Positions 3,867 to 19,902 of a stretch of 50,016 nt of DNA are shown here, piece by piece (position 1 is the stretch's first letter; every line of letters starts with the position of its first letter). A program made the position numbers and the translations under genes. The DNA is from a virus. The stretch covers positions 1 to 50,016 of IMG/VR virus record IMGVR_UViG_3300036979_000962; one strand, given 5' to 3'. The notes below the pieces were generated by a model that saw only the letters and a list, made by a program, of their open reading frames with translations, searched no databases and was not told where the DNA came from.

Positions 3867-4138
3867 TTTTCATTTTCCTTTCGTAGCATAATCATCGAGA
3901 GCGAGTCGATTTTGCCAATGATGACCTTGTGTTCGTCCCGGTTCTCGGTGCGGTTCGTGTCGAGGCCGGCTTTGATGGCCCGTATCTCGACTTCGACGGC
4001 CGTGATGCGGTTCGTGTTGAGGAGGACTTGGGAGACGAGCGCGGTGATGAGGACCGTGGCGACACCGATGAGGATTTTTTTCACCGTCGACCAATTCCCC
4101 CCGCTCGAGGAGCCGTTGAGCGAGAGTTCCTTGCTCAA
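3863..4138 (-). CDS. small membrane protein with coiled-coil tail
   Basis: 91 residues. I chose TTG 4138 because it forms a TTGA overlap with the previous stop and has GGAAGGGAG about 7 nt upstream. One membrane segment (ILIGVATVLITALVSQVLL, about residues 19-37) is followed by a charged helical tail (ITAVEVEIRAIKAGLD) likely to form a coiled coil. It lies two genes after the endolysin, so an accessory lysis role is possible, but no family was recognised. Confidence 0.7.
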   Translation of the reverse strand: MSKELSLNGSSSGGNWSTVKKILIGVATVLITALVSQVLLNTNRITAVEVEIRAIKAGLDTNRTENRDEHKVIIGKIDSLSMIMLRKENEK

Positions 4139-4389
4139 GGCGTGACTCCCTTCCGGAGAATCGTGAATCGGTCGGGGAGGTAGGTCCCGAGCGCGATGAG
4201 TTCGGCCCGCGTCTTCTCGCATTGGCGATGGGAGAACGGGCCGGCCTTGAGAAGCCACTTGTCGTCGCGGCCGAGATACCACAGACAGAACGGCTTTTTC
4301 TTGAAGAGTCCCGGGAGGACGCCGATGACGGCGCCGATGGCGGCGATGACCTCGCCGACACCGATTTTCAACGCTCTCGCTAGGCTCAT
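4135..4389 (-). CDS. small membrane-associated protein in the lysis group
   Basis: 84 residues from ATG 4389; AGGAGG lies 5 nt upstream and the start overlaps the endolysin stop as ATGA. The N-terminal third is hydrophobic (VGEVIAAIGAVIGVLPGLF) and the rest is basic and soluble. Holin or accessory lysis function is an inference from position after the endolysin. Confidence 0.7.
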   Translation of the reverse strand: MSLARALKIGVGEVIAAIGAVIGVLPGLFKKKPFCLWYLGRDDKWLLKAGPFSHRQCEKTRAELIALGTYLPDRFTILRKGVTP

Positions 4390-4835
4390 ACCATACCTCC
4401 TGCGAACGGGTCGAGAATAACAAAATCGCGGCCTCGGTAGCCGAGCGGCCGGAGTTTGATGAACGCATTGGCCGAAGCCGCGGCGTCGTCGGAAGTCGTC
4501 GAGGAGCCTCCGCCGGAGGCGCCGAGCGTGTGGAACGGGTCGACCATCAGTTCCGTGTGGATGGCCTTCCGGCCCTTGAGCCACAGCACGACACAGCCGG
4601 CCCCTCCTCCGTCGACGACCTCATACTCCCGCCATCGGCGCAAGAGCCCGTCGGCGGTCGAGTCGAATCCGTGCGGGAGGAGACCGACCGCTGTCAGGAC
4701 TTCGATGACGAAGCCCGAGCAGTCGAATCCGAGAATCGGGTCGTCGCCGCCCCACCGATACGGGAGCCCGACGAACGAGAAGGCATAGCGGACGGCAATC
4801 TCCCGCGCATATTTCACTCGGAGGTCGTCGGGCAT
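4386..4835 (-). CDS. NlpC/P60-family cell-wall peptidase (endolysin)
   Basis: 149 residues from ATG 4835, preceded by GAGG. The NlpC/P60 cysteine-peptidase core is clear: LPYRWGGDDPILGFDCSGFV with catalytic Cys39, and His93 in KAIHTELMV. Enzymes of this family cut peptide bonds in peptidoglycan. It has no signal peptide, so it would need a holin to reach the wall. It is the first gene after the candidate late promoter and terminator, as expected for a late lysis gene. Confidence 0.9.
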   Translation of the reverse strand: MPDDLRVKYAREIAVRYAFSFVGLPYRWGGDDPILGFDCSGFVIEVLTAVGLLPHGFDSTADGLLRRWREYEVVDGGGAGCVVLWLKGRKAIHTELMVDPFHTLGASGGGSSTTSDDAAASANAFIKLRPLGYRGRDFVILDPFAGGMV

Positions 4836-4848
4836 TTTTGTCCTCGAT

Positions 4849-4882
4849 AAAAAAGTGGACGGGCCGGAGGGACGACCCGTCC
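4849..4882 (-). terminator. intrinsic terminator directly before the endolysin gene
   Basis: In the minus transcript a 7-bp stem GGACGGG/CCCGTCC is followed by AC and a run of six T. It lies 14 nt before the endolysin ATG and about 35 nt after a likely transcription start, so late genes could be read only by passing through it. Confidence 0.8.
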
Positions 4883-4922
4883 TAGACCGAAGAGAGAGAA
4901 ACGCCGTTGCTTACACAATCTC

Positions 4923-4928
4923 ATTATA
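4923..4928 (-). promoter_or_regulatory. candidate late promoter (-10 box)
   Basis: A perfect TATAAT on the minus strand in the gap after the gene at 4940-5350. No convincing -35 box is found at 16-18 bp (GACGAG at 17 bp), so it may need an activator. Transcription would start near 4916 and meet the terminator at 4882-4849 about 35 nt later. Confidence 0.55.
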
Positions 4929-4939
4929 CAACATTCCGT

Positions 4940-5350
4940 CTACCACTCGTCGCCGACCGAGGCGCGATGGAAGGTGAGGCGCTGGATGATGGCGCGGATT
5001 TCGTCGGGAGTCTTCTCCCGTATTCCGCGCCGCGCATAGCCGGGGTCGACGCCGAGCGTTTTACAAACGACCGCGAACGAGAACGCCGGACAGGCCGGCC
5101 GATAGCGCGGGTCGAATAGGTATCGGTCGGCGTCGGCCTTACGGCGGGCGGCTCGCGAACGGGCCCGAGGATTCTTGATTTGTTCGGGACGAAGGAAGTA
5201 ATCCTTGACCTCGACGAGAGCGACCGCGGCGAGCAGTTTGCGGACGGATTGGTCGGGGAACTCGGCCCCACCGAATATCTCGCGGAAGAGCGCCGGCTGG
5301 TCGGCAAGAGTCCGCTCCTTGGTCGCGTTGTGGTAGAGGCGGCCGGTCAT
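4940..5350 (-). CDS. candidate late-gene regulator, last gene of block B
   Basis: 136 residues from ATG 5350. It is basic in the middle (NPRARSRAARRKADADRY) and has the segment FSFAVVCKTLGVDPGYARRG, a pattern like a helix-turn-helix seen in small phage proteins at the same place. No family was firmly recognised. It is the last gene before the promoter and terminator that precede the late genes, where lambda carries Q; a role as antiterminator or activator is inferred from position. The ribosome-binding site is weak. Confidence 0.65.
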   Translation of the reverse strand: MTGRLYHNATKERTLADQPALFREIFGGAEFPDQSVRKLLAAVALVEVKDYFLRPEQIKNPRARSRAARRKADADRYLFDPRYRPACPAFSFAVVCKTLGVDPGYARRGIREKTPDEIRAIIQRLTFHRASVGDEW

Positions 5351-5359
5351 TCGCGGCGC

Positions 5360-5557
5360 TCACGGCGTCCGGCTCATCCACACAGATTCGCCGGCGACGA
5401 CCGCGAACGACGCTCCGCACGCCGGACACACGAGGTCCGCCGCGGCCTCCTCCCGAACGCGCTCCATTTGGAGATAGACTCGGCCTCGGCACTTCCAGCA
5501 CAACGCAAAGAACACCCGCGGAAAACGCGGCCGTCGAGGCCGCGGCTCTTTCGCCAT
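5360..5557 (-). CDS. small zinc-ribbon protein
   Basis: 65 residues. ATG 5557 is preferred over GTG 5566 because GGAGG is 8 nt from the ATG. Two knuckles, CWKC and CPAC, would hold one zinc ion; the N-terminus is strongly basic (KEPRPRRPRFPR). Nucleic-acid binding is plausible. It overlaps nothing but follows the preceding stop within a few bases. Confidence 0.7.
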   Translation of the reverse strand: MAKEPRPRRPRFPRVFFALCWKCRGRVYLQMERVREEAAADLVCPACGASFAVVAGESVWMSRTP

Positions 5558-5562
5558 CGTTC

Positions 5563-5841
5563 TCACCTCCGCGTGGATGGGATTATTTTCGCCGGCGCCC
5601 CGGGATTAGGGTTCTTCTTCGCGGCTTCGGTCGCCTCGGCCCGGCGCCGAGTCGCGACCTCATCGGTCATCGTCTGGATGTAGGAGACGAGCCGCCGCGG
5701 AACCCAAAAGCGGTCCTCCGAAGTGAACGCTTGGGCCGAGACCGGGAAGCGGAAGAAGAGAGCGACCCGCGACAGGAACGAGAGCCGCTCTCCCCGACAG
5801 ACGAGTTGCTTCCCGTCGGTCGTGTAGATTATGACCGGCAT
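5563..5841 (-). CDS. hypothetical protein
   Basis: 92 residues from ATG 5841, sharing bases with the previous stop as TAATG. The N-terminus looks like beta strands (VIIYTTDGKQLVCRGERLSF), then a hydrophobic stretch, then a charged, disordered tail ending NPNPGAPAKIIPSTRR. No family recognised. It follows the holin candidate. Confidence 0.65.
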   Translation of the reverse strand: MPVIIYTTDGKQLVCRGERLSFLSRVALFFRFPVSAQAFTSEDRFWVPRRLVSYIQTMTDEVATRRRAEATEAAKKNPNPGAPAKIIPSTRR

Positions 5842-7102: not shown

Positions 7103-7674
7103 CCCTTCTCCTTCCCTTCGCGGTAGGCGGCAAGGGCATCGTCAAGGGACGCCACCGCCTCGCCCAGAACCGGGTCATTACCGTATGCATCGATGGTATC
7201 CTCAACCTGCTGGATGAGCGGCCTCGCCGCGTCCGCTTCGCTCCGCAGGGCGGTCAGTTCGGCCTCGGCTTTCCGCGCCACGGCCATCCTTGACCGGACA
7301 TAGGCGAACGATTCATCAAGGATTTCGGGGTTGGCGGTGTTGTTCCGGGCGGCGGTTTCAATCCCAAATAGGGCTACCTCATCGTCCTCGTGTTCGTTCC
7401 CCGGCTCTGGGGTCAGCCGCTCCACCTCGGCCTTGAGCGCGTCCCGCTCGTCAATAACCCTAGTCGTCTGCTGTTCTGCGATTCCAGTTAGGTTCCTAGA
7501 GGCCAGGAGTTCAAGTTTGAGGCGGTGAATCTGCTGAAAATCATCGGCCATTATTTCTTTTCTAGCGGCGATGTCGGCCTTGAGCGCGGCGTTCTCCTTG
7601 CGGAGCCGCTCAACCTCGCGCATCTCGTCCAGTTCGGCGTCCGTGGGGACGCTGGCCTTGTCGTAGGTGTCCAT
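7099..7674 (-). CDS. coiled-coil protein
   Basis: 191 residues from ATG 7674, with GGAGG 6 nt upstream (GTG 7677 is the alternative). Heptad-like charged helices fill residues about 15-90 (EVERLRKENAALKADIAARK), followed by an acidic linker PEPGNEHEDDEVA and a second helical part. No catalytic motif. Codon use looks slightly less GC-biased than neighbours. Function unknown. Confidence 0.7.
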   Translation of the reverse strand: MDTYDKASVPTDAELDEMREVERLRKENAALKADIAARKEIMADDFQQIHRLKLELLASRNLTGIAEQQTTRVIDERDALKAEVERLTPEPGNEHEDDEVALFGIETAARNNTANPEILDESFAYVRSRMAVARKAEAELTALRSEADAARPLIQQVEDTIDAYGNDPVLGEAVASLDDALAAYREGKEKG

Positions 7675-7889
7675 CACTTTCCTCCTTTAGTTTTTCGCCG
7701 TGGGGTAGCGCGGCGGTTCCAGGCCCAAGTTGATTGAGCGTTATCGATTACCCAATATCGCTCTATGTAGGAGAAGTAGCACTCGGGAGTGTGCTGGACA
7801 AAATAATCCTCTTGGTCTTTGTCGTATTCGGGCTTGGCCCCGCAGAACGGGCAGGGCTTCAGCCTCGGCGCGGACTTCGCGGGGGCCAT
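7674..7889 (-). CDS. Lar-like (restriction alleviation) zinc protein
   Basis: 71 residues from ATG 7889. The pattern LKPCPFCGAKPEY, a later HTPECYF, and a final WAWNRRA matches the Lar/restriction-alleviation family: a small zinc fold with a CPFCG knuckle and a terminal W-N-R-R motif. Lar of Rac prophage modulates type I restriction; whether this copy does so is not known, since the fold is widespread in phages. Confidence 0.75.
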   Translation of the reverse strand: MAPAKSAPRLKPCPFCGAKPEYDKDQEDYFVQHTPECYFSYIERYWVIDNAQSTWAWNRRATPRRKTKGGK

Positions 7890-8125
7890 CACTTCTCCTC
7901 CTTCGGCGCGTCGGGTAGGGCGGCGAGGCCGAGTCCGCGGAGCATATCGACGATGCGCCTCGCTTGTTCATCTTCCCCATAACTTTCGTTTCCTTCGGCG
8001 AACACCCCGGCCCACTTTTTCACGAAAGTCACCGTGACGGGCCGCATCCGAGCGAGAAGGATGTCGATGTCCGTCGGGTCGTGTCCGACGACGCCGATGA
8101 AATAATGGTCCCGGTCGCCGCTCAT
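7889..8125 (-). CDS. hypothetical protein
   Basis: 78 residues from ATG 8125, ATGA overlap. Begins SGDRDHYFIGVVGHDPTDID and continues as a mixed alpha/beta small protein. No family recognised; operon position links it to the Lar-like and wHTH-like genes. Confidence 0.65.
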   Translation of the reverse strand: MSGDRDHYFIGVVGHDPTDIDILLARMRPVTVTFVKKWAGVFAEGNESYGEDEQARRIVDMLRGLGLAALPDAPKEEK

Positions 8126-8577
8126 TCCATCCTCTCCGAAGCCTCAAGGTCTTCAAGTTCAAGTTCGTCCGGCTCGTCCGCCTCCTCGAGCCCGGGGAGG
8201 AGGAGTTGATTCCGGTAGGGCCCGAACTGCGGATAGGCCCGGCGGATTCGAGCGATGCGGCGGCCTGTCCCGCGAATCTTCGCCATCAAGTAGTCCTCGG
8301 TCGCCCGGATGTCGTCCGGGCCGGCGGCGAGGAAAATCCCGGTGTCCGCACAGCAGATTCCGGCCTCCGAGTTCGCGTAGATATTGCGGAAGAGTTCGTC
8401 CGTGATTTTCGTCCACGGCTCCTCCGGGTCGAGCGGCCGGAAGTTGGCGTTCGCGGCGGCGAGGAGGTAGGCGCGGTCGATAGCGTGAGCGGCCCCGATG
8501 GCCGGCGCGTGGTCGCGGTCGCCGAGGACGAGGCGGTTGTAGATGAAGCGCTCGATTGCTTCGCGGTCGTGTTTCAT
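8122..8577 (-). CDS. winged-helix-like phage protein
   Basis: 151 residues from ATG 8577 with GGAGG 7 nt upstream. The middle part (WTKITDELFRNIY, GICCADTGIFLA, then a long basic helix MAKIRGTGRRIARIRRAY) resembles small phage DNA-binding proteins with a wing followed by a basic helix. The C-terminus is acidic (EEADEPDELELEDLE). Function unknown. Confidence 0.65.
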   Translation of the reverse strand: MKHDREAIERFIYNRLVLGDRDHAPAIGAAHAIDRAYLLAAANANFRPLDPEEPWTKITDELFRNIYANSEAGICCADTGIFLAAGPDDIRATEDYLMAKIRGTGRRIARIRRAYPQFGPYRNQLLLPGLEEADEPDELELEDLEASERME

Positions 8578-8948
8578 TTCGCGGCCTCCTTCTCCACGAA
8601 GTCGAAGCAGATGAACTTCACCTCCGAGGCGGTCGTCGACCCGAGGACCTTGCAGAACTTCGCACACCGCGCACACCTCGGGAGCGTCCCGCGCTCCTTC
8701 ATCTTCCCGCGCCGGGCCTCGTCGCGGATTTGCTTCGACTTGCTGTTCGGGTAGTAGAGATTGTTCGCTATGTATTCGAGGCGCGAGAGGTCCGACTTTC
8801 CGAGGCATATGGAGTTGCGCCGGCCCGCGCCGCCGGGCCCCGACGCCTTGCCGTCGCCTCGCGTTCCGAACGGGGAGACGACGCTCGCCGAATGGAAGAC
8901 CTCAGCCCGCTTCTTCTTGTCCTTCCGCGGCCGGTATGCTTTTTTCAC
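8574..8948 (-). CDS. zinc-finger protein, unknown function
   Basis: 124 residues from GTG 8948, which overlaps the stop of the replication gene as GTGA. Very basic N-terminus (KKAYRPRKDKKKR), and a C-terminal cysteine cluster CARCAKFC followed by FICFDF. Probably binds nucleic acid. No family recognised. Confidence 0.65.
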   Translation of the reverse strand: MKKAYRPRKDKKKRAEVFHSASVVSPFGTRGDGKASGPGGAGRRNSICLGKSDLSRLEYIANNLYYPNSKSKQIRDEARRGKMKERGTLPRCARCAKFCKVLGSTTASEVKFICFDFVEKEAAK

Positions 8949-10598: not shown

Positions 10599-11665
10599 CA
10601 CTTCGCTCCCTTCGCGGCGGCCGCCTTCTTCTCGTCATCTTCCAGCGACGCCCGCCATCGCAAGAGGTAGCCGTGGACGAGTTCCATCTCCGCCTCGTTG
10701 AAGTCGGAGAGTTCGCCAACGGTGCGGTTGTAGGTCTTGAAGACGAAGCGCTGGATGCCGACCCACATCTTCTCCTCGCTGATTCCGCGCGCGGCGAGGT
10801 CGGTCTTGACCTTCGCGAACTTTTCGAGTTGCGTGAGCGTCGGCGTCTCGCCCTTCTTCGGCTTCGACTTCTTCGCGTGGTCCTCGGCGGTGTCGGCGCC
10901 GATTTCCTCGCCGAACGACGGGCCCTCGCCCTTCTCCTCGCCCTTCCCGGGACCGGGCTCGAACGACCCCTCGAACTCGTCGACGGGACGGCCGAGCGGC
11001 CGGCGCTTCGACTCCTCGTAGGAGGTCTTCGAGAACGGGTCGACCTTTGGGTCGGTGAGGTCCGCGACGACTTCGGTCGTCGGGAGTTTCGCGTGGTCGA
11101 CGGGCATCTCCTCGGCCGTGTAGGGCATCCCGGCGAACTCGTCGGGGAACGCCATCCGGAACGCTTGGGCGATGGCGACCTTCTTGAGCATCGTCCGCGG
11201 CTTGTCGGCCCAAAACTTGGTCGGGATTTTGCGGCCGGTCGGCTGTCCGTCCTTCCACTCCGGCTTCGTCTGGACATACTCCGAGAAGAATACCTCGTGG
11301 CGGAGCGGCTTCTCCCAATCCTTCCGGAAGACCTCGACCCACGCCTTCACGGGCGTCCCGTCGGGCCCGTCCTCGGTTCCCGAGTTCATCCCCGCCCACT
11401 TCCCGCTCCGGTCGGCGCGTTTGATGTAGGTCTCGTAGCCGACGACGAAAGTCGCGGGGTCCTTCGGGCTGTATTTGATGAGGTAGATTTCCCGCTTAAA
11501 CGGGTTCAGCCCGAACATCGCGCATTGATTGAGGAAGAGCGCGATTTCCTGTTGTGTGGCGAGCGCGTTGACATAGCGCGTCACCGTCTCCGGCGACAAC
11601 ACGATTGCCGCCGACTCGGCCGCCTTCACGACCGCCGAGGTTCCCGTCGTTTCTCTCTCTGACAT
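10598..11665 (-). CDS. RecT/Bet-family single-strand annealing protein
   Basis: 355 residues from ATG 11665, with CTAGGAGGT upstream. The Bet/RecT core is recognised in EIALFLNQCAMFGLNPFKRE, YLIKYSPKDPATFVVGYE and KIPTKFWADKPRTMLKKVA. Such proteins bind single-stranded DNA and promote annealing at forks. From about residue 210 the chain becomes acidic and repetitive (PGPGKGEEKGEGPSF), then a helical C-terminal domain follows. No partner exonuclease was recognised, which is common for RecT phages. Confidence 0.85.
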   Translation of the reverse strand: MSERETTGTSAVVKAAESAAIVLSPETVTRYVNALATQQEIALFLNQCAMFGLNPFKREIYLIKYSPKDPATFVVGYETYIKRADRSGKWAGMNSGTEDGPDGTPVKAWVEVFRKDWEKPLRHEVFFSEYVQTKPEWKDGQPTGRKIPTKFWADKPRTMLKKVAIAQAFRMAFPDEFAGMPYTAEEMPVDHAKLPTTEVVADLTDPKVDPFSKTSYEESKRRPLGRPVDEFEGSFEPGPGKGEEKGEGPSFGEEIGADTAEDHAKKSKPKKGETPTLTQLEKFAKVKTDLAARGISEEKMWVGIQRFVFKTYNRTVGELSDFNEAEMELVHGYLLRWRASLEDDEKKAAAAKGAK

Positions 11666-11933: not shown

Positions 11934-11963
11934 ATTATAATCCGAGTCCGCGGAAAAACTCAA
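11934..11963 (-). promoter_or_regulatory. promoter of early/middle block B
   Basis: TTGAGT (11958-11963) and TATAAT (11934-11939) are separated by 18 bp on the minus strand, in the gap between the block-A terminator and the gene at 11893. A sigma-70-type promoter fits well. Transcription would start near 11927. Confidence 0.75.
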
Positions 11964-11997: not shown

Positions 11998-12038
11998 AAA
12001 AAAAAAGGCCGGGGCCCCGCGGGGGACGCCCGGCCTTT
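11998..12038 (-). terminator. strong intrinsic terminator of block A
   Basis: In the minus transcript AAAGGCCGGG and CCCCGGCCTTT pair around a GC-rich loop, followed by a run of nine T. It separates the DUF932-like gene from the block-B promoter. The plus strand could also fold but lacks as long a T-run. Confidence 0.9.
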
Positions 12039-12047
12039 GTCGGTCGG

Positions 12048-13421
12048 CTACTTCTTCTTCCCGGCGCACTTCGCGCAGAGGCGGTCGCGGTTGAGTTCGC
12101 TCGGCTTGAACTCGCCCGCGCACTTGTCGCAGAAGAGGATGTCTTCGTCGTCCTTGAGGAAGGCGATTTTCTTGAAGCCACGCCTCCGGACGACCTCGCC
12201 CTTCGGGGCCTTCCCGACCTTCGTCTTCACGGGCTCGGCCTCGGCCGCGATGACCTCGCGGACCCGGACGCGGGAGGTCCGGCGGGCCTTCGTCGTCGGC
12301 TTCGGGAACGCCGGCGCGTAGGACTGCAACTCGAGGTTGCGGTCGCGCTCGCTCGTCTTCTTCTTCGCGGCCTTCTTCGGGGTCCGCATCTTCGCGTCCA
12401 CGGCCTTCTGCTTGGCCGTCCGGTCCTTCGGGCCGGCCTCGGGGCGTTCGCCCGCCACAGGGGCTCCTGCGGCCGTTTTCGGGGCCTTCCCGGCCTTCTT
12501 CGCGGGCGCCTCGGCCGCCCGGGCGGCCTTCGCGGCCGCCTTCTTCTCGCGCCGGCTCTCGACGACCTTCTCGCGGAACTCGGCCCGGAGAGCGCTCGCC
12601 GAGATTTTCTTCTCCTCCCGCGCCTTCGCGATGGCTTCGTCGGCCGGAGCCTCGACCTTGTCGAACGAGTAGAACTTCTTGTCCGCGTTCTCGGAGAGGA
12701 GGAGCGGGACCTCGTGGTCGATGAAGGCGTTGAGGCGCGTCTGCTTCGCGGCGACGCACATAATCGGGAGCGGGTTCATCAACTCGGTCGTCGCTCCGTG
12801 CCAGCCGTGGAGCGTCGGCGTGTATTTCGACTTCTCGTCGTCCGTCCCGTAGAAGAGGCGGTCGAAGTCGCCGAACCGCTTGGCCGGGATGAGGTCGCGC
12901 CGCATCGCGGCGATGGTCAGAATCGACGCCTGTTTGATGGAGAGGTCGCGCTCGAGCATCGCCGAGTGCCACGCGGCGAGCCCGTCCCACCGCGCCATCG
13001 TCGCGGCGAGAGCCTCCCGCGCCATCAGCACGATTTCCGAGGAGTCGAGCATCCCGGTGTGCTTCCGGAAGAGGACATAGTCGGACGAGAAGACCATATT
13101 GTCGCAGACGAAGACGCGCTCGCCCGCGCACAGCCCGACCGCCATCGACTTGTTGATGGAGTTGCGGATTCCGATGGCGAACCGGAACCCCTCCGCGCCG
13201 CGGTTGACCTCCCAGATGCCGAACATCTGAGCGCCGGTCGTTATCGAGTATTCCTTCCGCTCGACCGACAGCCCGGCCTCGGCGACCGCGGAGGCGACCG
13301 CGCCGATGACTTCGCCGTGAGCGAACGGATGCCACGACGCCGTGAAATCCGGTTGCGGCTCGGCGAGGACCACCGACTCATCGACCCTCCGCGTGACCTT
13401 GTGAGAGAGAACAGCGTTCAT
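12048..13421 (-). CDS. DUF932-like protein with C-terminal zinc ribbon
   Basis: 457 residues from ATG 13421. Residues about 20-260 carry the DUF932 signatures (SWHPFAHGEVIGAV, GFRFAIGIRNSINKS, AVGLCAGERVFVCDNMVFS). A lysine/alanine-rich linker (about 260-380) then leads to a zinc ribbon (CDKC, CAKC). DUF932 proteins are common in phages and plasmids and often flank recombination genes; the function is not established. The basic linker and ribbon suggest nucleic-acid binding. Confidence 0.8.
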   Translation of the reverse strand: MNAVLSHKVTRRVDESVVLAEPQPDFTASWHPFAHGEVIGAVASAVAEAGLSVERKEYSITTGAQMFGIWEVNRGAEGFRFAIGIRNSINKSMAVGLCAGERVFVCDNMVFSSDYVLFRKHTGMLDSSEIVLMAREALAATMARWDGLAAWHSAMLERDLSIKQASILTIAAMRRDLIPAKRFGDFDRLFYGTDDEKSKYTPTLHGWHGATTELMNPLPIMCVAAKQTRLNAFIDHEVPLLLSENADKKFYSFDKVEAPADEAIAKAREEKKISASALRAEFREKVVESRREKKAAAKAARAAEAPAKKAGKAPKTAAGAPVAGERPEAGPKDRTAKQKAVDAKMRTPKKAAKKKTSERDRNLELQSYAPAFPKPTTKARRTSRVRVREVIAAEAEPVKTKVGKAPKGEVVRRRGFKKIAFLKDDEDILFCDKCAGEFKPSELNRDRLCAKCAGKKK

Positions 13422-13519
13422 AAAAAACCTCCTAGAGAATTAGCCTGAGCCCGGGTTTGGACGGGCTCCTCCGGCTTAGGGCGGGCCTCCCGCTCCGCCC
13501 CCATCGCCAAAGACATCGT
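13422..13519 (-). ncRNA. repeated two-hairpin leader element, copy A
   Basis: In the minus transcript: a first hairpin (GCGGG/CCCGC), the spacer CTAAGCCGG, then hairpin P3 GAGCCCG/CGGGCTC with loop TCCAAACC, ending at CTCTAGGAGGTTTT before the DUF932 gene start. The stem bases differ from other copies but pairing is kept. Confidence 0.7.
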
Positions 13520-13897
13520 TCAGTAGGACGCGACGACGACGACGGGCTTCCCCGTCTTCTTCTCCATCCGCTCGGCGAGCCGGACGAAATCGGAGAAGGA
13601 CTTGGCGACCTTCGCGATGGCCTTCGCGTCGGTCTGCTTGTAGATGGTCCGCTCGCGGACCTCTACCGCGGCCCTCGCCGTGTCGAGCCGGTCGCGCATC
13701 GTCCGCGCCGGGATGGCCGCCTTCCCGTCGTGCGAGAAGAACGCCTCCGGAACGAGCGCCCGGGTCGCGTAGGGGTCGCCGTGGTAGGCTTCCCGAAGGT
13801 AGCCGACGCGGCCGGCCGTGACGGAGAAGCCGGTTATCTGAGCCTTCTTCTCCGCCTCGGTCTGCCCCTCCCATTCCATATAAATGTCGATGCCCAT
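13520..13897 (-). CDS. conserved-type phage hypothetical protein
   Basis: 125 residues from ATG 13897, with CTAGGAGGT upstream. Begins MGIDIYMEWEGQT and contains GRVGYLREAYHGDPYATRAL, a combination I recognise from small phage proteins of unknown function. The C-terminus is helical and basic (KAIAKVAKSFSDFVRLAERM). Confidence 0.75.
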   Translation of the reverse strand: MGIDIYMEWEGQTEAEKKAQITGFSVTAGRVGYLREAYHGDPYATRALVPEAFFSHDGKAAIPARTMRDRLDTARAAVEVRERTIYKQTDAKAIAKVAKSFSDFVRLAERMEKKTGKPVVVVASY

Positions 13898-13950
13898 AAG
13901 AACCTCCTAGACGAACGCGGCTTGGATTCGGCTCGCGCCGGACCGCGCTC
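13898..13950 (-). ncRNA. repeated leader element, short copy B
   Basis: In the minus transcript GAGCGCGG pairs with CCGCGTTC (one G-T) around an inner GGC-GCGA-GCC hairpin. The loop keeps ATCCAAG, and the element ends GTCTAGGAGGT. It lacks the separate first hairpin, so it is a reduced copy. Confidence 0.5.
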
Positions 13951-14493
13951 TCACTTGTCGTCGCCGTCGTAGGCGGCGAACTTGCGGGCGAGTTTCATAT
14001 CGACCGAATCGAGCGGTTGGACCGCGAGGAGCCGGCGCTGGAAGTTCACCTCGGCCGCGCCTTCCTCCGGGTCGTTCCGTCCCTTCTTCTCGGCCCGGTA
14101 GTTGACGGCCCGGTCGTCGCAGTCGTTGAAGTCGACGGTGCCGCCGAAGAACCTCGCGAGTCCCTTGAAGACGGCGATGTTGATGGCGTAGGAGCGAGCC
14201 GAGAGATAGCGCCGGCCGCGGCCGCCCTCGAACGCGTAGAACGCCGACCAGCACTCGCCGAGTTTCAGCCACGCGAGCGACTCTCCCGGCTTCGGCCGGA
14301 CGATGATGTCGGCGAAGCCGGCCTCGAACGAGGCGGCGTTCACCTTGACCCGGTGGTCGGGCGCCTCCGCGAAGAACGAGCCGTCGACGAACTCGTGCTT
14401 GTGGATAGAGACGCCGAGGAGCGCCGCCGCGACGAGAGCGACATCCTTGACGCGGACATCGCTCGGAAGGTAAAGATGAGTGTCAACGCCCAT
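13951..14493 (-). CDS. hypothetical protein
   Basis: 180 residues from ATG 14493, with CTAGGAGGT upstream. Begins MGVDTHLYLPSDVRVKD, similar in style to the next gene's MGIDIYMEW, and has an alpha/beta pattern with AWLKLGECWSAFYAFEGG. The C-terminal part is helical. No family recognised. Confidence 0.75.
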   Translation of the reverse strand: MGVDTHLYLPSDVRVKDVALVAAALLGVSIHKHEFVDGSFFAEAPDHRVKVNAASFEAGFADIIVRPKPGESLAWLKLGECWSAFYAFEGGRGRRYLSARSYAINIAVFKGLARFFGGTVDFNDCDDRAVNYRAEKKGRNDPEEGAAEVNFQRRLLAVQPLDSVDMKLARKFAAYDGDDK

Positions 14494-14589
14494 TGTAAAA
14501 CCTCCTAGAGAAAATGGATTTGCGCGCCCGGGCTTTGGACCGGGACCGCCGCATTAGGGCGGGCTCCGAGAGTCCCGCCGCCATCTGCG
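14494..14589 (-). ncRNA. repeated two-hairpin leader element, copy C
   Basis: Minus transcript: outer pair CGCA/TGCG encloses a hairpin GGCGGG-A-CTC/GAG-CCCGCC; then P3 CCCGG/CCGGG with loop TCCAAAGC; then AAATCCATTTTCTCTAGGAGG. Clear match to the consensus. Confidence 0.75.
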
Positions 14590-14793
14590 TCACGCAGTAG
14601 GGTCGAAGCGGATGCGGTCGCACCGGAGGCACCGGACCTCCCGCCTCCCGACCCGCTCCAAGGCGCCGCCGCACCAATGCTTCTCGTCCAGCGTCCGCCG
14701 CCGCCACGCGGCCTTCCGGCCGGCGGTGCGGGCCTGTTCGCGAAGCAGGACCCGGAGGCCCCGCTTCTCGGCTTCGGTGATGTGGATAGTCAT
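14590..14793 (-). CDS. small zinc-finger protein
   Basis: 67 residues from ATG 14793, ATGA overlap with the previous gene. A basic helix (LLREQARTAGRKAAWRRR) precedes WCGG and CLRC, which could hold zinc. Function unknown. Confidence 0.65.
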   Translation of the reverse strand: MTIHITEAEKRGLRVLLREQARTAGRKAAWRRRTLDEKHWCGGALERVGRREVRCLRCDRIRFDPTA

Positions 14794-15089
14794 TCTCCGA
14801 GCCTCCTCCGCTCGATGTCGTTGTCGACCATCCGGTCGAACGCCTCGTCCGGGTCCGGGCCTTCGGGGAACTCCCGAGCCTCGCCCTCTTCGAAGCGCTG
14901 GCCGGTCTCCGGGTCCGTGAGCGACCCGTCCTCGTCGTCGCGGACGAACTCCGCGGCGTCGCACTCTTTCCCGCATCCCGCGCAGACATCGAAGATGTCG
15001 TCGGGGTCGAGGCGGTCCGTCGAGGCCCGCTTCCCGACGACGACCGGCGCGAGACAGCAGAGCGACCTGTCGACGAGCGTCGTAGCCAT
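14790..15089 (-). CDS. small cysteine-rich acidic protein
   Basis: 99 residues from ATG 15089 (GTG 15092 possible). Cysteines at SLCCLAP and CAGCGKEC suggest a zinc site; the rest is strongly acidic (EFPEGPDPDEAFDRMVDNDI). No family recognised. Confidence 0.7.
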   Translation of the reverse strand: MATTLVDRSLCCLAPVVVGKRASTDRLDPDDIFDVCAGCGKECDAAEFVRDDEDGSLTDPETGQRFEEGEAREFPEGPDPDEAFDRMVDNDIERRRLGE

Positions 15090-15433
15090 CACTTGCCGCC
15101 CTTCTTGTCGGGGTAGCCGAAGCCCGGCCCAATCTTCTCGTCGGCCTCGTGGACGGCGGCGTCGATTTCGTCCTCTCCGTCGAGGTCCTCCGGGTCGTCG
15201 GCGCACCCGACGAACTCCTCGATGGCGGCCTCGATGGTGGCGCGGTTGGCTTTGACGCCCTCCGCGTTCCGGACCTCGAATCCGAGAGCCTCGAGGATGT
15301 CGACGCAAGTCTCGACGAGCGAGACGCGGGCCGGGACCTCGTAGTCGTTGAGGTCGCGGTCGAGGATGTGCTCGGCGCAGTCGCCGAGGTCCGACGAGGT
15401 GTTCTCGAACCGGCAGTAAGACATATTGGACAT
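15089..15433 (-). CDS. phage protein of the MSYCRFENT type
   Basis: 114 residues from ATG 15433 with GGAGG 7 nt upstream. The start SNMSYCRFENTSSDLGDC is a pattern I recognise from many small phage proteins of unknown function. The remainder is acidic and helical (VGCADDPEDLDGEDEIDA). Confidence 0.75.
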   Translation of the reverse strand: MSNMSYCRFENTSSDLGDCAEHILDRDLNDYEVPARVSLVETCVDILEALGFEVRNAEGVKANRATIEAAIEEFVGCADDPEDLDGEDEIDAAVHEADEKIGPGFGYPDKKGGK

Positions 15434-15533
15434 CGTAAAACCTCCTAGAAAAATTAGGGGTCGGAGGGCTTGGGAACCTCCGGAGCCGCCTTAGAGAAGG
15501 TGTCATCGGAGTCACCTTCTCCCCTCGGCGATT
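15434..15533 (-). ncRNA. repeated two-hairpin leader element, copy D
   Basis: Minus transcript: the outer pair is CGCC/GGCG instead of CGCA/TGCG, a compensated change. The inner hairpin is GAGAAGGTG/CACCTTCTC (9 bp). P3 is CGGAGG/CCTCCG with loop TTCCCAAGC, followed by TTCTAGGAGGTTTT. The best single case of covariation. Confidence 0.8.
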
Positions 15534-15764
15534 TCAGAACTTCGTCATCTCGACCTTGGTCGCCGCGGAGGTCGAGAGCGTGACCGCCGGGCATCCGTAA
15601 GTCCCGATGTAGAGACCCTCGAGGTCGGAGACGAAGATTTGGACGAGCCCGTGAGGCGTGTCGACCCACAGGAGCCTGTCCTTCGGGCCCATCTTGACCT
15701 CGCGGAACTCGCCGGTGACCTTCCCGGTCGCCTTGTCCTTGTTCCGGACGAGCCTGAGTTTCAT
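15534..15764 (-). CDS. hypothetical protein
   Basis: 76 residues from ATG 15764, ATGA overlap. Mostly beta-strand-like (VTGEFREVKMGPKDRLLWVD, HGLVQIFVSDLEGLYIG). No family recognised. Confidence 0.65.
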   Translation of the reverse strand: MKLRLVRNKDKATGKVTGEFREVKMGPKDRLLWVDTPHGLVQIFVSDLEGLYIGTYGCPAVTLSTSAATKVEMTKF

Positions 15765-15979
15765 ATCGCTTCTCCCTTCTTCGATTCGAGATGGGCGGAG
15801 ACCTTCTCCGCGAACGAGACGCGCTCGTAGGCCCGGATGAGGAACGGGTCGCGCATCCCCTTGACTGTCCGCTCGGCGTAGGCCGCGGCGAGTTCGGTCG
15901 GCTCGCCGGCCGCGACGCGGCGGCGGAGGATGTCCTTGAAGACCGCCATCATCATCTCGACCTTCCGGTCGGCGTCCAT
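15761..15979 (-). CDS. hypothetical helical protein
   Basis: 72 residues from ATG 15979, TGATG overlap. Helical, with VFKDILRRRVAAGEPTELAA and a basic middle. No family recognised. Confidence 0.65.
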   Translation of the reverse strand: MDADRKVEMMMAVFKDILRRRVAAGEPTELAAAYAERTVKGMRDPFLIRAYERVSFAEKVSAHLESKKGEAI

Positions 15980-16443
15980 CAGAACATCCCCGGGAAGTCG
16001 ACGCACACATTCGAGGCGTCGTCGATGGCCGACTCGGCGGCTTCGAGGAACTCCTCGAGTTCGTCGGCCGAGGTCGTCGTGAGGTCGTTGAGGTCCGCGT
16101 CCTCGAGCCCGCTCGTGAACTCCTCGAGGTTCGAAATCGCCTCCTCGAGTTCTTCGGCCTTCGACCCGGACTGCAGATTCTCGGGAAGATTGTCGAGCCA
16201 ATTTTGGAGTTCTTCGCTCAACTCCTCCGCGTTCTGCTTCGCGTCGTCGACGATTCCGGCCGCCCGCTCCGCGGCCGCGAGTTCTTCCGGCGTGAAGACG
16301 ACGATGGTCTCGGCCTCGATGTGAGTCGCGCCGAGTTCGGTCCGGACCTTTTCGAGAAGGTCTTGGACGGTGGAGAGAGCGTCGCCGAGCGCCGACTGAA
16401 TCTCCGCGAACCGCTCGCGCCTTGACGGATTCCGCTTAGACAT
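15979..16443 (-). CDS. acidic coiled-coil protein
   Basis: 154 residues from ATG 16443, with CTAGGAGGT upstream. After a basic start (SKRNPSRRERF) the chain is acidic and helical (EELSEELQNWLDNLPENL, AEELEEAISNLEEF). Function unknown; such acidic proteins can be DNA mimics, but nothing here shows that. Confidence 0.7.
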   Translation of the reverse strand: MSKRNPSRRERFAEIQSALGDALSTVQDLLEKVRTELGATHIEAETIVVFTPEELAAAERAAGIVDDAKQNAEELSEELQNWLDNLPENLQSGSKAEELEEAISNLEEFTSGLEDADLNDLTTTSADELEEFLEAAESAIDDASNVCVDFPGMF

Positions 16444-16534
16444 TTGAAAACCTCCTAGAGAAAATTGGATTTACGGGGCCGGGCTTGGGACCGGCCAGCC
16501 GCATTGACGGGACCCGCGTCCCGCCCCTCTGCGA
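16444..16534 (-). ncRNA. repeated two-hairpin leader element, copy E
   Basis: Minus transcript: CGCA/TGCG outer pair, inner CGGGAC/GTCCCG hairpin with loop GCGG, then P3 GGCCGG/CCGGCC with loop TCCCAAGC, then AAATCCAATTTTCTCTAGG. The first hairpin is identical to copy F. Confidence 0.8.
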
Positions 16535-16768
16535 TTAGGTCTTCTTGGAGATTCGGAGACCGCCATACTTCTTGTCTTCTTCGGCGGGACGAATCGACAT
16601 TCCAGAGAGGTCGCCAATGACCATCTCTCTCTGCTTCGGCTCATCTCCATCCTGATTGACGACCATCAAGAAGATGAGGCCGCTCTTCTTGTCGATTCTC
16701 TTGTAGGCCCAAAAGCGCCGCCCGTCGTTCGTGACGACATACCAATACTGATACTTCGGATAAATCAT
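16535..16768 (-). CDS. hypothetical protein
   Basis: 77 residues from ATG 16768, with GGAGG upstream. Strand-rich (YQYWYVVTNDGRRFWAYKRI, GLIFLMVVNQDGDE). No family recognised. Confidence 0.7.
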   Translation of the reverse strand: MIYPKYQYWYVVTNDGRRFWAYKRIDKKSGLIFLMVVNQDGDEPKQREMVIGDLSGMSIRPAEEDKKYGGLRISKKT

Positions 16769-16848
16769 CTGTCCCTCCACTATAAGGAATGCCCGGGCTT
16801 GGGACCGGGCCGCCGCATTGACGGGACCCGCGTCCCGCCCCTCTGCGA
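16769..16848 (-). ncRNA. repeated two-hairpin leader element, copy F
   Basis: Minus transcript: same first hairpin as copy E; P3 is GCCCGG/CCGGGC with loop TCCCAAGC. The 3' part differs: TTATAGTGGAGGGACAG replaces the usual CTAGGAGG. Confidence 0.75.
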
Positions 16849-17118
16849 TTAGGATGTCCAAGTGTCGGCGAGGTCCGCGAGCCTTCGCTCGTGCTTCTCG
16901 TTGACCGACTCTTGAATCTCGACGGCCTTCCGGACGACCATCTGCTTGTCGACGACTTCTTTATAGAGGCTCCGCCAAAGGTCGCGGAGGTCGTCGAGTT
17001 TCATCCGATTGAGATTCGGTTGGGGCCGCTCGAGGTAGTTCGTCGCGATGCGGATTTGGATGCCGAGTTCGTTCCGCCGCGAATACTCCGCCCGGTTGCT
17101 TCCGAGAGCGTGTCTCAT
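16849..17118 (-). CDS. hypothetical helical protein
   Basis: 89 residues from ATG 17118, with CTAGGAGGT upstream. Basic N-terminus, then a helical region (LDDLRDLWRSLYKEVVDKQM). Function unknown. Confidence 0.7.
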   Translation of the reverse strand: MRHALGSNRAEYSRRNELGIQIRIATNYLERPQPNLNRMKLDDLRDLWRSLYKEVVDKQMVVRKAVEIQESVNEKHERRLADLADTWTS

Positions 17119-17204
17119 CGTGACCTCCTAGAATTGCGGGTTTGATTTAGCGCGGGCTTGGGACCGCGCTTGCCGCATTAGCCGGCCGGGCCGGCCCCTC
17201 TGCG
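17119..17204 (-). ncRNA. repeated two-hairpin leader element, copy G
   Basis: Minus transcript: CGCA/TGCG outer pair, inner GCCGG/CCGGC hairpin, P3 GCGCGG/CCGCGC with loop TCCCAAGC, then TTCTAGGAGGTCACG and ATG. Confidence 0.8.
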
Positions 17205-17447
17205 TCAGGCGATGACGAAGCCTTCGAGAGCGACCTTCAAGGACCGGAGCCGCTCGTAAGCGTCGAACTGGTCGGTGGCGGGATATTCGAGGTGAACATT
17301 CCCATCAGCCCCATCAATCTCGGCGTAGACATCGTGGGCGATGCTTCCGTCCGAGAGCCGCTTCTCCGTGACCGAGAGCGTGGCGAACTTGTTGGCGTCG
17401 AGTTTCACGGATTCTTGAAGGACGACTTTCTGATGACCGAGTGACAT
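17205..17447 (-). CDS. hypothetical protein
   Basis: 80 residues. ATG 17447 is chosen because GGAGG lies 5 nt upstream; the ATG at 17459 lies within that ribosome-binding site. Strand-rich with SVTEKRLSDGSIAHDVYAEI. No family recognised. Confidence 0.7.
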   Translation of the reverse strand: MSLGHQKVVLQESVKLDANKFATLSVTEKRLSDGSIAHDVYAEIDGADGNVHLEYPATDQFDAYERLRSLKVALEGFVIA

Positions 17448-17534
17448 TGGAACCTCCATCGAAGTTGAGATAGCGTCGATGTCCGGGCTTGGAACCGGAC
17501 CGCCGCATTACGGCCTCGCGGCCGTCCTCTGCGC
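17448..17534 (-). ncRNA. repeated two-hairpin leader element, copy H
   Basis: Minus transcript: CGCA/TGCG outer pair, inner ACGGCC/GGCCGT hairpin with a GNRA-type GCGA loop, P3 GTCCGG/CCGGAC with loop TTCCAAGC, ending GATGGAGGTTCCA. The loop change pairs with a change in the 5' purine strand (GAGGAC). Confidence 0.8.
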
Positions 17535-17972
17535 TCAACAAAGATTCCGGGGCCGCTCGGCTTCGTAAGAAGCCTTGTCGTCCTCGTATTGCTCCCGGGC
17601 CGGCTTCTCGCCGACCTTCTCGTAGGCCGAGCCGTTCCAGAAGACGGAGTTGAACTCCGACACGGCGTAGCGGTCGCGGCGGTCCATCGCTTTGTAAGCG
17701 GCGAACTCTTCGCGGGACATCTTCCGGAACCCGACGAACTCGACGAGGTAGAGGATGCCGAAGAGGTCGATGACATCGCCCATCGACACGGAGCAGAACG
17801 GCCGCGGCTGAAAATCGTTCTGGCCGTAGCGGAAGATGAGGTCGAGAACATTGTCTCTGTCCTCGCGGTAAGCCTTGCCGTATACATCGAGCGGGACATC
17901 GACCTTCCGAACTTCGTCGTTCCGGAACGCCATCAAGTGAACATCGAACTCGACGACTGCGTAAGTGGACAT
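17535..17972 (-). CDS. hypothetical protein, first gene of early block A
   Basis: 145 residues from ATG 17972, with CTAGGAGGT upstream. Strand-rich start STYAVVEFDVHLMAFRNDEV, then helical with REEFAAYKAMDRRDRYA. First gene made from the block-A promoter, so possibly a host-takeover protein; no family recognised. Confidence 0.7.
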   Translation of the reverse strand: MSTYAVVEFDVHLMAFRNDEVRKVDVPLDVYGKAYREDRDNVLDLIFRYGQNDFQPRPFCSVSMGDVIDLFGILYLVEFVGFRKMSREEFAAYKAMDRRDRYAVSEFNSVFWNGSAYEKVGEKPAREQYEDDKASYEAERPRNLC

Positions 17973-18095
17973 TCGAACCTCCTAGAACATTTTGGATTTT
18001 CGGAGAGCGTCTCCGTCCGACGATTCGACCGCCGTCGTTCGAGTCGTCGGATGGAGGAGCGGGCCCGCGCCCGCTCGTCTCCAACTATTTTTCGT
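17973..18095 (-). ncRNA. leader of block A, hairpin element copy I (atypical)
   Basis: Minus transcript: GAGCGGGC/GCCCGCTC hairpin (loop GCGG), then a long stem CCGACGA/TCGTCGG extended by CTCC/GGAG, then AAAATCCAAAATGTTCTAGG. It keeps the two-hairpin layout and the 3' AAATCCA...CTAGGAGG end but not the TCCCAAGC loop. Confidence 0.5.
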
Positions 18096-18275
18096 TTGTC
18101 CGTTGCTTCGTCGGGAGTCGTCTCGTTCTTCCGTCCGGTGGGGTCCGTCTCTTTCGAGTTCGACCGCCGCTCCCGACCGGGTTCTCGTTCGGCTCGACCT
18201 CTTGGCCGCCGGCCTCCCGCCCCCGGGTCTCTCCCCGACCCTCCCGGGGTCGGGCCGATTCGTTTATCGAATCGT
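18096..18275 (-). other. 5' part of the block-A leader RNA, no gene
   Basis: No convincing coding region. The transcript start folds GATTCG/CGAATC (18273-18257), followed by CCGACCC/GGGTCGG (18253-18235). Hairpins at an mRNA 5' end often slow decay. A purine-rich, unstructured stretch follows. An arginine-rich reading frame here is judged spurious. Confidence 0.5.
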
Positions 18276-18281
18276 GCCTTC

Positions 18282-18309
18282 ATTATAATCCATCCCGCAG
18301 GCAAAGCAA
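18282..18309 (-). promoter_or_regulatory. promoter of early block A
   Basis: TATAAT (18282-18287) with TTGCTT (18304-18309) at 16-bp spacing, minus strand, in an AT-richer island. Transcription would start near 18275 and read the block-A genes after a roughly 300-nt leader. A tandem 10-mer AAAAATCTTC (18371-18390) upstream could be an operator. Confidence 0.7.
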
Positions 18310-18329: not shown

Positions 18330-18440
18330 GACTTTTTAGGCTCGCAAACGACTGATAATGAACGGGTTGAAAAAATCTTCAAAAATCTTCAAATCCTACC
18401 CTGTTTTTATGGTAGGTTTTGAGACTTTTTTTAGGCTCGC
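18330..18440 (+). repeat. imperfect direct repeat flanking the kdsB terminator
   Basis: GACTTTTTAGGCTCGC at 18330-18345 and GACTTTTTTTAGGCTCGC at 18423-18440, differing by two T. The second copy covers the kdsB stop codon. They bracket about 77 bp that hold the terminator and a tandem 10-mer. This looks like a past duplication or recombination point. Confidence 0.6.
18369..18418 (-). terminator. terminator after kdsB, probably two-way
   Basis: CCTACC/GGTAGG stem with a 10-nt loop; in the minus transcript ATTTGAAGATTTTTGAAG follows, in the plus transcript TTTTGAGACTTTTTTT. It would end the late unit before the early promoter. The T-run is broken on the minus strand, so strength is uncertain. 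Confidence 0.5.
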
Positions 18441-19138
18441 GAGGAGAGCGCGGAGGCGGCCCGCTCGAGGTCCGCCGGAGTGTCGACGGCGATTGTCTCG
18501 GCTCCGGCGTCGACCATCCGGAGGCTGTATCCGGCGCGGAGCCACGCGACTTGTTCGAGGTCGGAGGAGAGCGGCAACGCGACGAGCCTCGCGAGCGTCT
18601 CGCGACGATAGGCGTAGACGCCGATGTGGACGCCGTGTTCGATTTCGGCGCGGACCGGCTTGCGTGTGAACGCGAAGGCGCGGCCGTGGTCGTCGATGAT
18701 GACCTTGACGCGGTTCCGGTCGCGGTTGTATTCGCGGCCGGTCGGACGATAGAAAAGCGACGCGACGCGTGTGCCGCGGTCGAGGAACTCCGTCGCCAAC
18801 TTATCGAGCGCGTCGGGACGGATGGTCGGCTCGTCGGCTTGGATGTTGATGATGACTTCTTCGTCGTCGCGGGCGGCGAGTTGGCGCATCGCGTCGGCGA
18901 CGCGCTCGGTCCCGTTCCGACACGACCGCGCCGTGACGAGGAACGGAATCCTCTCCCGCTCGCAGACCTCCACAATTTCCGGGTCCGGCGTCGCGACGAA
19001 GACGGCGGAGATGAGCCGGGTCCGGACCGCCGCGTCGACCGCCCACTCCACCATCGGCCGACCGAGGAGCGGCGCGAGCGGCTTCGCCGGGAACCGCGTC
19101 GACGCCATCCGCGCCGGGACGATTCCGATGACTCTCAT
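18431..19138 (-). CDS. kdsB: CMP-Kdo synthetase (3-deoxy-manno-octulosonate cytidylyltransferase)
   Basis: 235 residues from ATG 19138, overlapping the kdsA stop as ATGA. KdsB joins Kdo to CMP using CTP. Motifs: IVPARMASTRFPAKPL at the N-terminus (nucleotide-binding loop), FVATPDPEI, CRNGTERVADAM, NIQADEPTI (the QxDEP substrate loop), TRKPVRAEIEHGVHIGVYAY and SSDLEQVAWLRAGYS. Length is near the family's roughly 245 residues. It follows kdsA in the same unit, so phage infection would supply activated Kdo, the sugar of Gram-negative LPS inner core. Confidence 0.9.
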   Translation of the reverse strand: MRVIGIVPARMASTRFPAKPLAPLLGRPMVEWAVDAAVRTRLISAVFVATPDPEIVEVCERERIPFLVTARSCRNGTERVADAMRQLAARDDEEVIINIQADEPTIRPDALDKLATEFLDRGTRVASLFYRPTGREYNRDRNRVKVIIDDHGRAFAFTRKPVRAEIEHGVHIGVYAYRRETLARLVALPLSSDLEQVAWLRAGYSLRMVDAGAETIAVDTPADLERAASALSSRA

Positions 19139-19902
19139 CGAACGGCCTCGTGGAGCCGCGTGAGAACGCGCAGGAGCGACGCGAGGTCGGCGAGCGGGAG
19201 CGAGTTCGGGCCGTCCGACTTCGCCCGCGCCGGGTCGTCGTGGACCTCCAAGAACACGCCGTCCGCGCCGGCCGCGACGGCCGCCTTCGCGATGGTCGGG
19301 ATGAGGTCGGGCCGGCCGGTCGACGAGCCTCGCCCGCCGCCGGGCCGCTGGACCGAATGAGTCGCGTCGATGATGACCGGGAATCCGAGCGCCCGCATCG
19401 TCGGGATGGAGCGCATATCGACAACGAGGTCGTGGTAGCCGAAGGTCGTCCCGCGCTCCGTCAGCCAAATCTCCCGCGCTCCGGCCATCCACGCCTTCTC
19501 GCCGGCGTAGAACATATCGTCGGGAGACATAAACTGACCCTTCTTTATGTTGAGCGGCCGGCCGGTCCGCGCCGCCGCGACGATGAGGTCGGTTTGACGC
19601 GAGAGGAGCGCCGGGATTTGGAGGATGTCGACGACGCGGGCCGTCGGCTCGGCTTGAGCCGGCTCGTGGATGTCGGTCGTGAGGCGGACGCCCGTCTCCG
19701 CCTTCACTTCGCCGAGGATGCGGAGACCCTCGACGAGCCCGGGCCCGCGGAACGCGCCGGCGGAGGTGCGGTTGGCCTTGTCGAACGACGCCTTGAAGAC
19801 GAACTCGACGCCCGCCTCCGCGCAGACGCGCTTGATTCGCGCCGCCATTCGGACGGCGTGGTCTTCAGATTCGATGACACAGGGACCGAGGATGAAGAAC
19901 AT
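19135..19902 (-). CDS. kdsA: Kdo-8-phosphate synthase
   Basis: 255 residues from ATG 19902, with GGAGG 7 nt upstream. KdsA condenses PEP with arabinose-5-phosphate. Visible motifs: FILGPCVIES, FKASFDKANRTS, TTDIHEP, QIPALLSRQTDL, NIKKGQFMSP, LTERGTTFGY, DATHSVQRPGG and FLEVHDDP...SDGPNS. The Cys in GPCVIES with the His, Glu and Asp of the later motifs matches the metal-dependent class rather than the E. coli type, which has Asn there. The N-terminus is minimal compared with the 284-residue E. coli enzyme. No phosphatase gene (KdsC) was seen, so the host one would be used. Confidence 0.93.
   Translation of the reverse strand: MFFILGPCVIESEDHAVRMAARIKRVCAEAGVEFVFKASFDKANRTSAGAFRGPGLVEGLRILGEVKAETGVRLTTDIHEPAQAEPTARVVDILQIPALLSRQTDLIVAAARTGRPLNIKKGQFMSPDDMFYAGEKAWMAGAREIWLTERGTTFGYHDLVVDMRSIPTMRALGFPVIIDATHSVQRPGGGRGSSTGRPDLIPTIAKAAVAAGADGVFLEVHDDPARAKSDGPNSLPLADLASLLRVLTRLHEAVR

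Follow-up and report, generated by a model that had tools for sequence, protein, structure and literature searches.

We analyzed the full 50,016 bases of a linear IMG/VR virus record, IMGVR_UViG_3300036979_000962 (hereafter the window), which derives from an uncultured phage. Its minus strand carries seven copies of an element that, judged by sequence and fold, is a type-P5 twister self-cleaving ribozyme (Rfam RF02684), a known class reportedly described by Roth et al. in 2014 (reference 25 of PMC10085705). All seven copies lie inside one early transcription unit. We consider it very likely that these cis-acting ribozymes cleave themselves and thereby split the early polycistronic RNA into separate messages, which likely decouples the levels and decay of these messages. 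This reading draws on the observed sequence, fold, co-variation, conserved catalytic nucleotides, placement, recurrence and orthology of the elements.

Six of the seven copies scored above the Rfam gathering threshold for RF02684 (39-60 bits, E 1e-4 to 5e-10). Copy 5 (15530-15462) fell below Rfam calling and was found with a twister-fold descriptor and our own covariance model, R1 (E 2.4e-5). Copy 7 (13509-13447) scored weakly with R1 (E 0.07), yet it passed the Rfam cut-off and all of its parts could be parsed. A preliminary description of this DNA had counted seven full copies on the minus strand, and that count was borne out. The two additional variant copies that it listed, most likely the junction at 13950-13898 and the first-gene leader near 18080, proved to be plain hairpins without the catalytic core.

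We used features of twister crystal structures as a checklist for the anatomy of the copies (PMC5408937). Twisters cut between a non-conserved nucleotide beside P1 and a conserved A (PMC5408937). The P5 permutation was confirmed in the window, where P1 is a closed hairpin and the open ends lie outside P2 and P4. The stem changes between copies had been reported correctly in the preliminary description, but its two-hairpin picture omitted the two pseudoknots that form the core, in which a purine strand pairs with a loop and GC pairs with GC. Both pseudoknots are present in all seven copies: T1 (L1 purines with L4) as GGA/UCC, GGG/CCC or UGG/CCA, and T2 (L2 GC with L4 GC) as GC/GC or, in copy 7, GG/CC. 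All seven also keep the guanine after P2, the AA at the cut site and the G-U in L4. The catalytic guanine and the cut-site AA occupy columns 5 and 106-107 of our alignment A3; our descriptor demands both, and their conservation is not independent for matches found by the descriptor alone. Copy 5 has a CGCC/GGCG P2, a long P1 and one extra U in loop L4, and copy 7 has a P2 of three base pairs (GGC/GCC). The window copies thus share sequence, P1, P2 and P4, T1 and T2, and the cut site with members of the RF02684 class.

Co-variation was measured on a larger set. The descriptor required pairing in P1, P2 and P4 and a few fixed core bases, and it did not require T1 or T2. Scanning the window, matched viral contigs and genome contigs yielded 102 unique copies, 95 of them non-redundant. 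T1 was fully paired in 93 of these 95, compared with 47.2 +/- 2.9 after shuffling (maximum 58 in 10,000 shuffles), and it took more than 10 different kinds of triplet pair. T2 was paired in 92 of 95, compared with 78.1 +/- 1.4 (maximum 84). The reversed-sequence control gave one match in 3.8 Mb. In a 21-copy alignment, 98.1% of cells were paired (83.4% shuffled). Among 90 distinct copies the value was 96.8% (76.7% shuffled, 24-40% in slid controls), double-sided changes numbered 234 against 58 +/- 8, and 14 of 15 pairs had changed on both sides; because the model behind alignment A3 contained P1, P2 and P4 but neither T1 nor T2, counts for the three stems lean towards structure. Both pseudoknots co-vary, and covariation is far above chance. 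These results strongly support the selection on RNA structure that the preliminary description had proposed. The descriptor also matched a divergent twister-like element (L330 4856-4912, plus strand) with T1 GCC/GGC and T2 CC/GG.

The copies follow a simple rule within their transcription unit. This unit of 13 genes on the minus strand is framed by a putative promoter near 18.29 kb and a terminator at 12038-11998 (Table 1). The promoter is called putative because its -35 element is weak and it is absent from the consensus-scan list. Of 12 junctions between genes, four overlap (-1/-4) and eight are gapped by 53-100 nucleotides (nt). A twister occupies seven of the eight gapped junctions and none of the four overlapping ones. 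The seven occupied gaps span 80-100 nt, and the 53-nt gap contains a plain hairpin instead. An Rfam search found no twister-P5 elsewhere in the window. The ribozymes start 0-10 nt past the upstream stop codon and end 22-33 nt ahead of the next start. They had been described as lying just upstream of start codons; the junction position is right, but the elements sit nearer the upstream stop codon than the start. With each copy wedged between a stop codon and the next ribosome site, self-cleavage should break the long transcript into separate messages.

Table 1. Features of the early transcription unit and its flank (window coordinates; aa, amino acids).
Feature	Coordinates	Strand	Basis
Putative sigma-70-type promoter of the unit, TTGCTT/16 nt/TATAAT (TATAAT 18287-18282)	18282..18309	-	read directly from sequence
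Structured 5' leader of first gene, long hairpin, without twister core	17973..18260	-	sequence; unmatched by Rfam or R1
Gene 1, 145 aa, without family match	17535..17972	-	sequence and family searches
Twister-P5 copy 1; predicted cleavage 17510^17509 (U^A); T1 GGA/UCC	17481..17533	-	Rfam 53.1 bits
Twister-P5 copy 2; predicted cleavage 17180^17179 (U^A); T1 GGG/CCC	17149..17204	-	Rfam 59 bits
Twister-P5 copy 3; predicted cleavage 16820^16819 (C^A); T1 GGG/CCC	16791..16847	-	Rfam 58.1 bits
Twister-P5 copy 4; predicted cleavage 16506^16505 (C^A); position-matched ribozyme in G010	16477..16533	-	Rfam 59.9 bits
Genes 5-7 (154, 72, 76 aa), -1/-4 overlaps, ribozyme-free inside	15534..16443	-	junction analysis
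Twister-P5 copy 5; predicted cleavage 15493^15492 (U^A); position-matched ribozyme in G010	15462..15530	-	R1 E 2.4e-5
Genes 8-10 (114 aa phrog_8760-like, 99, 67 aa), -1/-4 overlaps, ribozyme-free inside	14590..15433	-	junction analysis, family match
Twister-P5 copy 6; predicted cleavage 14556^14555 (U^A); T1 UGG/CCA	14527..14589	-	Rfam 51.1 bits
Sole gapped junction without twister: plain hairpin, possibly a decayed copy	13898..13950	-	core unmatched; fold z -1.1
Twister-P5 copy 7, divergent; predicted cleavage 13478^13477 (U^A); T1 UGG/CCA	13447..13509	-	Rfam 39 bits
Last gene of unit, 457 aa, phrog_1221-like; G010 homologue also directly after a twister	12048..13421	-	family match and comparison
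Intrinsic terminator closing the unit, GC hairpin and T9	11998..12038	-	sequence
Next promoter, TTGAGT/18 nt/TATAAT, heads recombination genes	11934..11963	-	promoter scan

The same placement is found in other phages. Of 98 copies with flanking sequence, 93 adjoin an upstream stop codon, with a modal distance of -1/0 nt. In 76 of the 98, a ribosome site and a start codon also follow within 70 nt, compared with 9% at random same-strand positions and 3% for the ribozyme sites read antisense; starts and stops were assigned with a simple script rather than a trained gene caller. A typical ribozyme starts no more than 1 nt from the upstream stop and finishes 12-66 nt ahead of the next start. In the sense orientation, the order is stop codon, ribozyme, next ribosome site.

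One alternative is a structured leader that does not cleave and either binds a protein, of the phage or of the host, or switches translation. In its favor, every copy precedes a start codon that has a strong ribosome site. We regard such leaders as very unlikely. The copies retain every catalytic nucleotide of a known ribozyme together with both of its pseudoknots, the upstream part has almost no influence on how open the ribosome site is, and the elements hug the stop codon rather than the start. A translation switch read by a factor, one of the roles raised in the preliminary description, is unsupported: predicted openness of the ribosome site was 0.52 with and 0.47 without cleavage, a small and non-significant difference (p = 0.06), and this candidate was rejected. 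The preliminary description had also suggested an mRNA processing site that gives each gene its own segment. This came close to the explanation that we favor, though it missed that the element is a self-cleaving ribozyme. A separate idea, that cleavage creates an AAUG start codon, was rejected on the scattered lengths of the resulting reading frames (median 21 codons, 1 to 300).

We examined how widely such arrays occur by running the core DNA pattern over 2.9 million viral contigs, which returned 94 stretches. An RF02684 search of 75 pattern-bearing records placed 44 over the cut-off; the records were picked for containing the core, and these counts therefore give no estimate of prevalence. 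Arrays of 4-9 copies, always on one strand, are present in G003, G010, G020, G028, G030, G036, G037, G038, G048, G058, G062 and G066, the last of which looks like a near-duplicate of G036. None of 14 control genomes contained a twister-P5. RF02684 was the only RNA family above its gathering score in 18 array loci. Junction proteins are almost all unrelated between array phages (3 matches among 91 proteins). When whole records were compared, only two pairs grouped: the window and G010, with 24 frames in common at a median identity of 38%, and G028 and G038, with 55 at 63%; the remaining pairs share 0-4 frames, several records being partial. Because only these two pairs group, we place the arrays in about ten lineages.

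Single-sequence searches for close relatives of window proteins gave two distant matches for one protein and none for another. Cultured phages yielded no convincing twister-P5 by blastn, a weak method for such RNAs. Matches to the DNA pattern in bacterial genomes were mostly chance, with Rfam-supported copies in three of seven genomes checked. One bacterial genome bin has three twister-P5 copies within 0.9 kb (L242; metagenome-assembled genome DS3.bin64, contig JAJYPP010000002.1, G127:C104 52948-53803), which may be a prophage array whose host could be recovered. Among the array phages, type-P1 twisters appeared only as sub-threshold matches, mostly overlapping P5 copies. Such matches lie among type-P5 copies on the minus strand of G005 (3827-5690), possibly a mixed array.

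Three window genes that follow a twister (154, 114 and 457 aa) have homologues in G010, and there, too, a twister precedes each of them. The 99-aa gene, joined to its neighbor by overlap in the window, has no ribozyme directly upstream in G010 either. The ribozymes ahead of the 457-aa gene and its 480-aa G010 counterpart share the rare T2 GG/CC, and their T1 is compensated, UGG/CCA in one and GGG/CCC in the other. Where present, the twister trait is old, but it is not tied to that gene.

Ribozymes that cut but are mainly neutral passengers, left by duplicated or mobile RNA elements and of no benefit to the phage, might be expected to resemble each other within a genome and to be distributed sporadically. 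Within-genome copies are indeed often alike (copies 3 and 4 share P1; T1 is uniform in G028 and in G058), and the distribution is sporadic. We nevertheless think this explanation quite unlikely, given the strict fit between stop codon and ribosome site, the retention of the same junctions with compensated T1 in G010 at ~38% protein identity, and recurrence in about ten lineages.

We infer from the combined evidence that the ribozymes probably cut in the cell and that the phage would benefit. Each ribozyme would fold during transcription and cut between N and A of NAA (N = U or C) just after P1, turning the transcript into eight segments, most with one gene or one block of overlapping genes. 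The upstream product would end about 30 nt past the stop codon with a GC-rich P1 hairpin and a 2',3'-cyclic phosphate. An AA bearing a 5'-hydroxyl would open the downstream product, ahead of the P4 hairpin and the ribosome-binding site, and the predicted leader of this product has a median length of 56 nt. 5'-hydroxyl ends and terminal hairpins disfavor RNase E entry. The likely benefit is that the level and decay of each segment would become independent of its neighbors, with ends shielded from the usual entry of decay. Processing would proceed without a host nuclease, and no phage or host factor should be needed. Overlapping genes, which would gain from a continuous message, would stay uncut. 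Tabulated twister constructs cleave in vitro at 1.4-2.5 per minute, with half-times near 20-30 s (PMC5408937).

Cleavage might instead be regulated, with a ligand or translation of the upstream gene controlling cutting. The basis for this idea is that in most copies the stop codon lies directly at the first strand of the ribozyme, so that P2 and the purine strand would be covered by a ribosome ending translation there. The absence of an extra conserved aptamer-like domain and the unconserved P1 loops argue against it, and we judge it unlikely.

A further alternative is that cleavage is a step towards circular mRNAs, in which complementary P2 halves from neighboring ribozymes would bring together a 5'-hydroxyl and a 2',3'-cyclic phosphate for joining by RtcB. 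RtcB joins ends of this kind, and P2 halves are mostly interchangeable between neighbors. However, RtcB was found in one of 34 twister-bearing phage records and in none of the arrays, so a link between RtcB and twisters was rejected. That record, G026 (IMGVR_UViG_3300011442_000017; 7486-8598 and 11579-11635, minus strand), has a single twister and is the only checked twister-bearing record that also encodes RtcB. Neighboring T1 strands were compatible in 44 of 62 cases against 41.8 +/- 1.9 by within-genome permutation, which is no excess, and window copies 5-7 are poorly compatible. The host may supply RtcB in place of the array phage. Overall, we give circularization very little credence. The same T1 count holds no signal for a private code that would keep neighboring ribozymes apart. 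Along most of the G036 array (L136), T1 switches back and forth between GGA and GGG. Across genomes, T1 follows no general rule.

Several observations weigh against self-cleavage of the early transcript as we propose it. The free-energy fold of copy 3 favors an alternative structure, two divergent copies, 5 and 7, may cut slowly or not at all, the promoter of the unit is weak by consensus, and the gapped junction at 13950-13898 is ribozyme-free. In addition, 49 other records have a homologue of the last gene (457 aa) and no twister; most relatives of this gene are twister-free, which means that its family can do without the arrangement. The preliminary description had named relatives that keep the genes without the element, together with random pairing, as grounds for abandoning its proposal. 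Nearly all last-gene relatives do lack a twister, which indicates that the element is not tied to particular genes, and regulation linked to that gene was rejected on this basis. The pairing, however, is precise and the same junctions are used in G010.

The surroundings of the array offer hints about the phage. Just upstream of the unit, a cytidylyltransferase (PF02348) adjoins a DAHP-synthase-family protein (PF00793) at 18431-19902 on the minus strand; the pair resembles KdsB and KdsA of KDO synthesis and would hint at a Gram-negative host. The genes past the 11963-11934 promoter include a RecT family member (PF03837) and an exonuclease, and they are twister-free. A TET-associated glycosyltransferase (PF20691) lies beside a ParB-N protein at 2485-3866 (minus strand), and a weak radical-SAM match lies at 1211-2587. 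By family match, the glycosyltransferase and the radical-SAM match suggest DNA base hypermodification.

We compared the twister array with known systems of RNA processing. In phage T7, host RNase III cuts the early polycistronic mRNA between genes into separate messages. T7 thus uses a host protein nuclease, whereas the window RNA should cut itself. The array also resembles engineered insulators, in which a self-cleaving ribozyme and a hairpin stand ahead of each ribosome site. In E. coli, the RiboJ insulator raised the amount of transcript about two-fold and that of protein 2-10 fold (PMC6206723), and ribozyme-assisted polycistronic co-expression has been engineered, as cited within PMC12819055. 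These insulators are man-made, and the phage arrays would be their natural counterpart.

Self-cleaving ribozymes have been seen near phage genes before. Bacterial twisters are enriched near certain phage genes and near other ribozymes, for an unknown reason (PMC10085705); here, arrays of one class are anchored to stop codons and occupy nearly every gapped junction of one unit. According to the available text of PMC3088659, tandem hammerheads occur in phage-like loci, for example three around ardA in Agrobacterium tumefaciens, and cut in vitro and in E. coli, their purpose being unknown. Like the window, these loci place several self-cleaving ribozymes in one polycistronic RNA; unlike it, they involve another class, about three copies and no junction rule stated in that text. 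In the haloarchaeal phages HF1/HF2, the same text places a hammerhead ahead of the early helicase gene, with a mapped 5' end within 3 nt of the cut site (PMC3088659). It too lies just upstream of an early gene, but it is a single copy of another class. Earlier papers already cover tandem hammerheads and the twister class, including the tendency of that class to be enriched near phage genes and other ribozymes (PMC10085705, PMC3088659). Our literature search found no description of twister arrays at phage gene junctions, although two key papers (Roth 2014, Weinberg 2015) may contain some. As far as searched, a stop-codon-anchored, gene-independent array is undescribed.

Ever since hammerheads and twisters turned up next to phage genes, the reason why bacteria and phages carry self-cleaving ribozymes has been called unknown (PMC10085705, PMC3088659). 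Recurring, compensated arrays tied to stop codons offer a concrete and testable answer, namely RNA-only processing of an early operon, and the presence of similar arrays in about ten unrelated phage lineages makes this unexplained role directly testable. We lean towards a general expression strategy, in which many unrelated uncultured phages would cut their own early transcript into separately tuned, end-protected messages (possibly circles made by host RtcB), with ribozymes gained and lost independently of genes. If true, the arrays would be a natural version of ribozyme insulators and a counterpart of T7 RNase III processing that needs no host nuclease.

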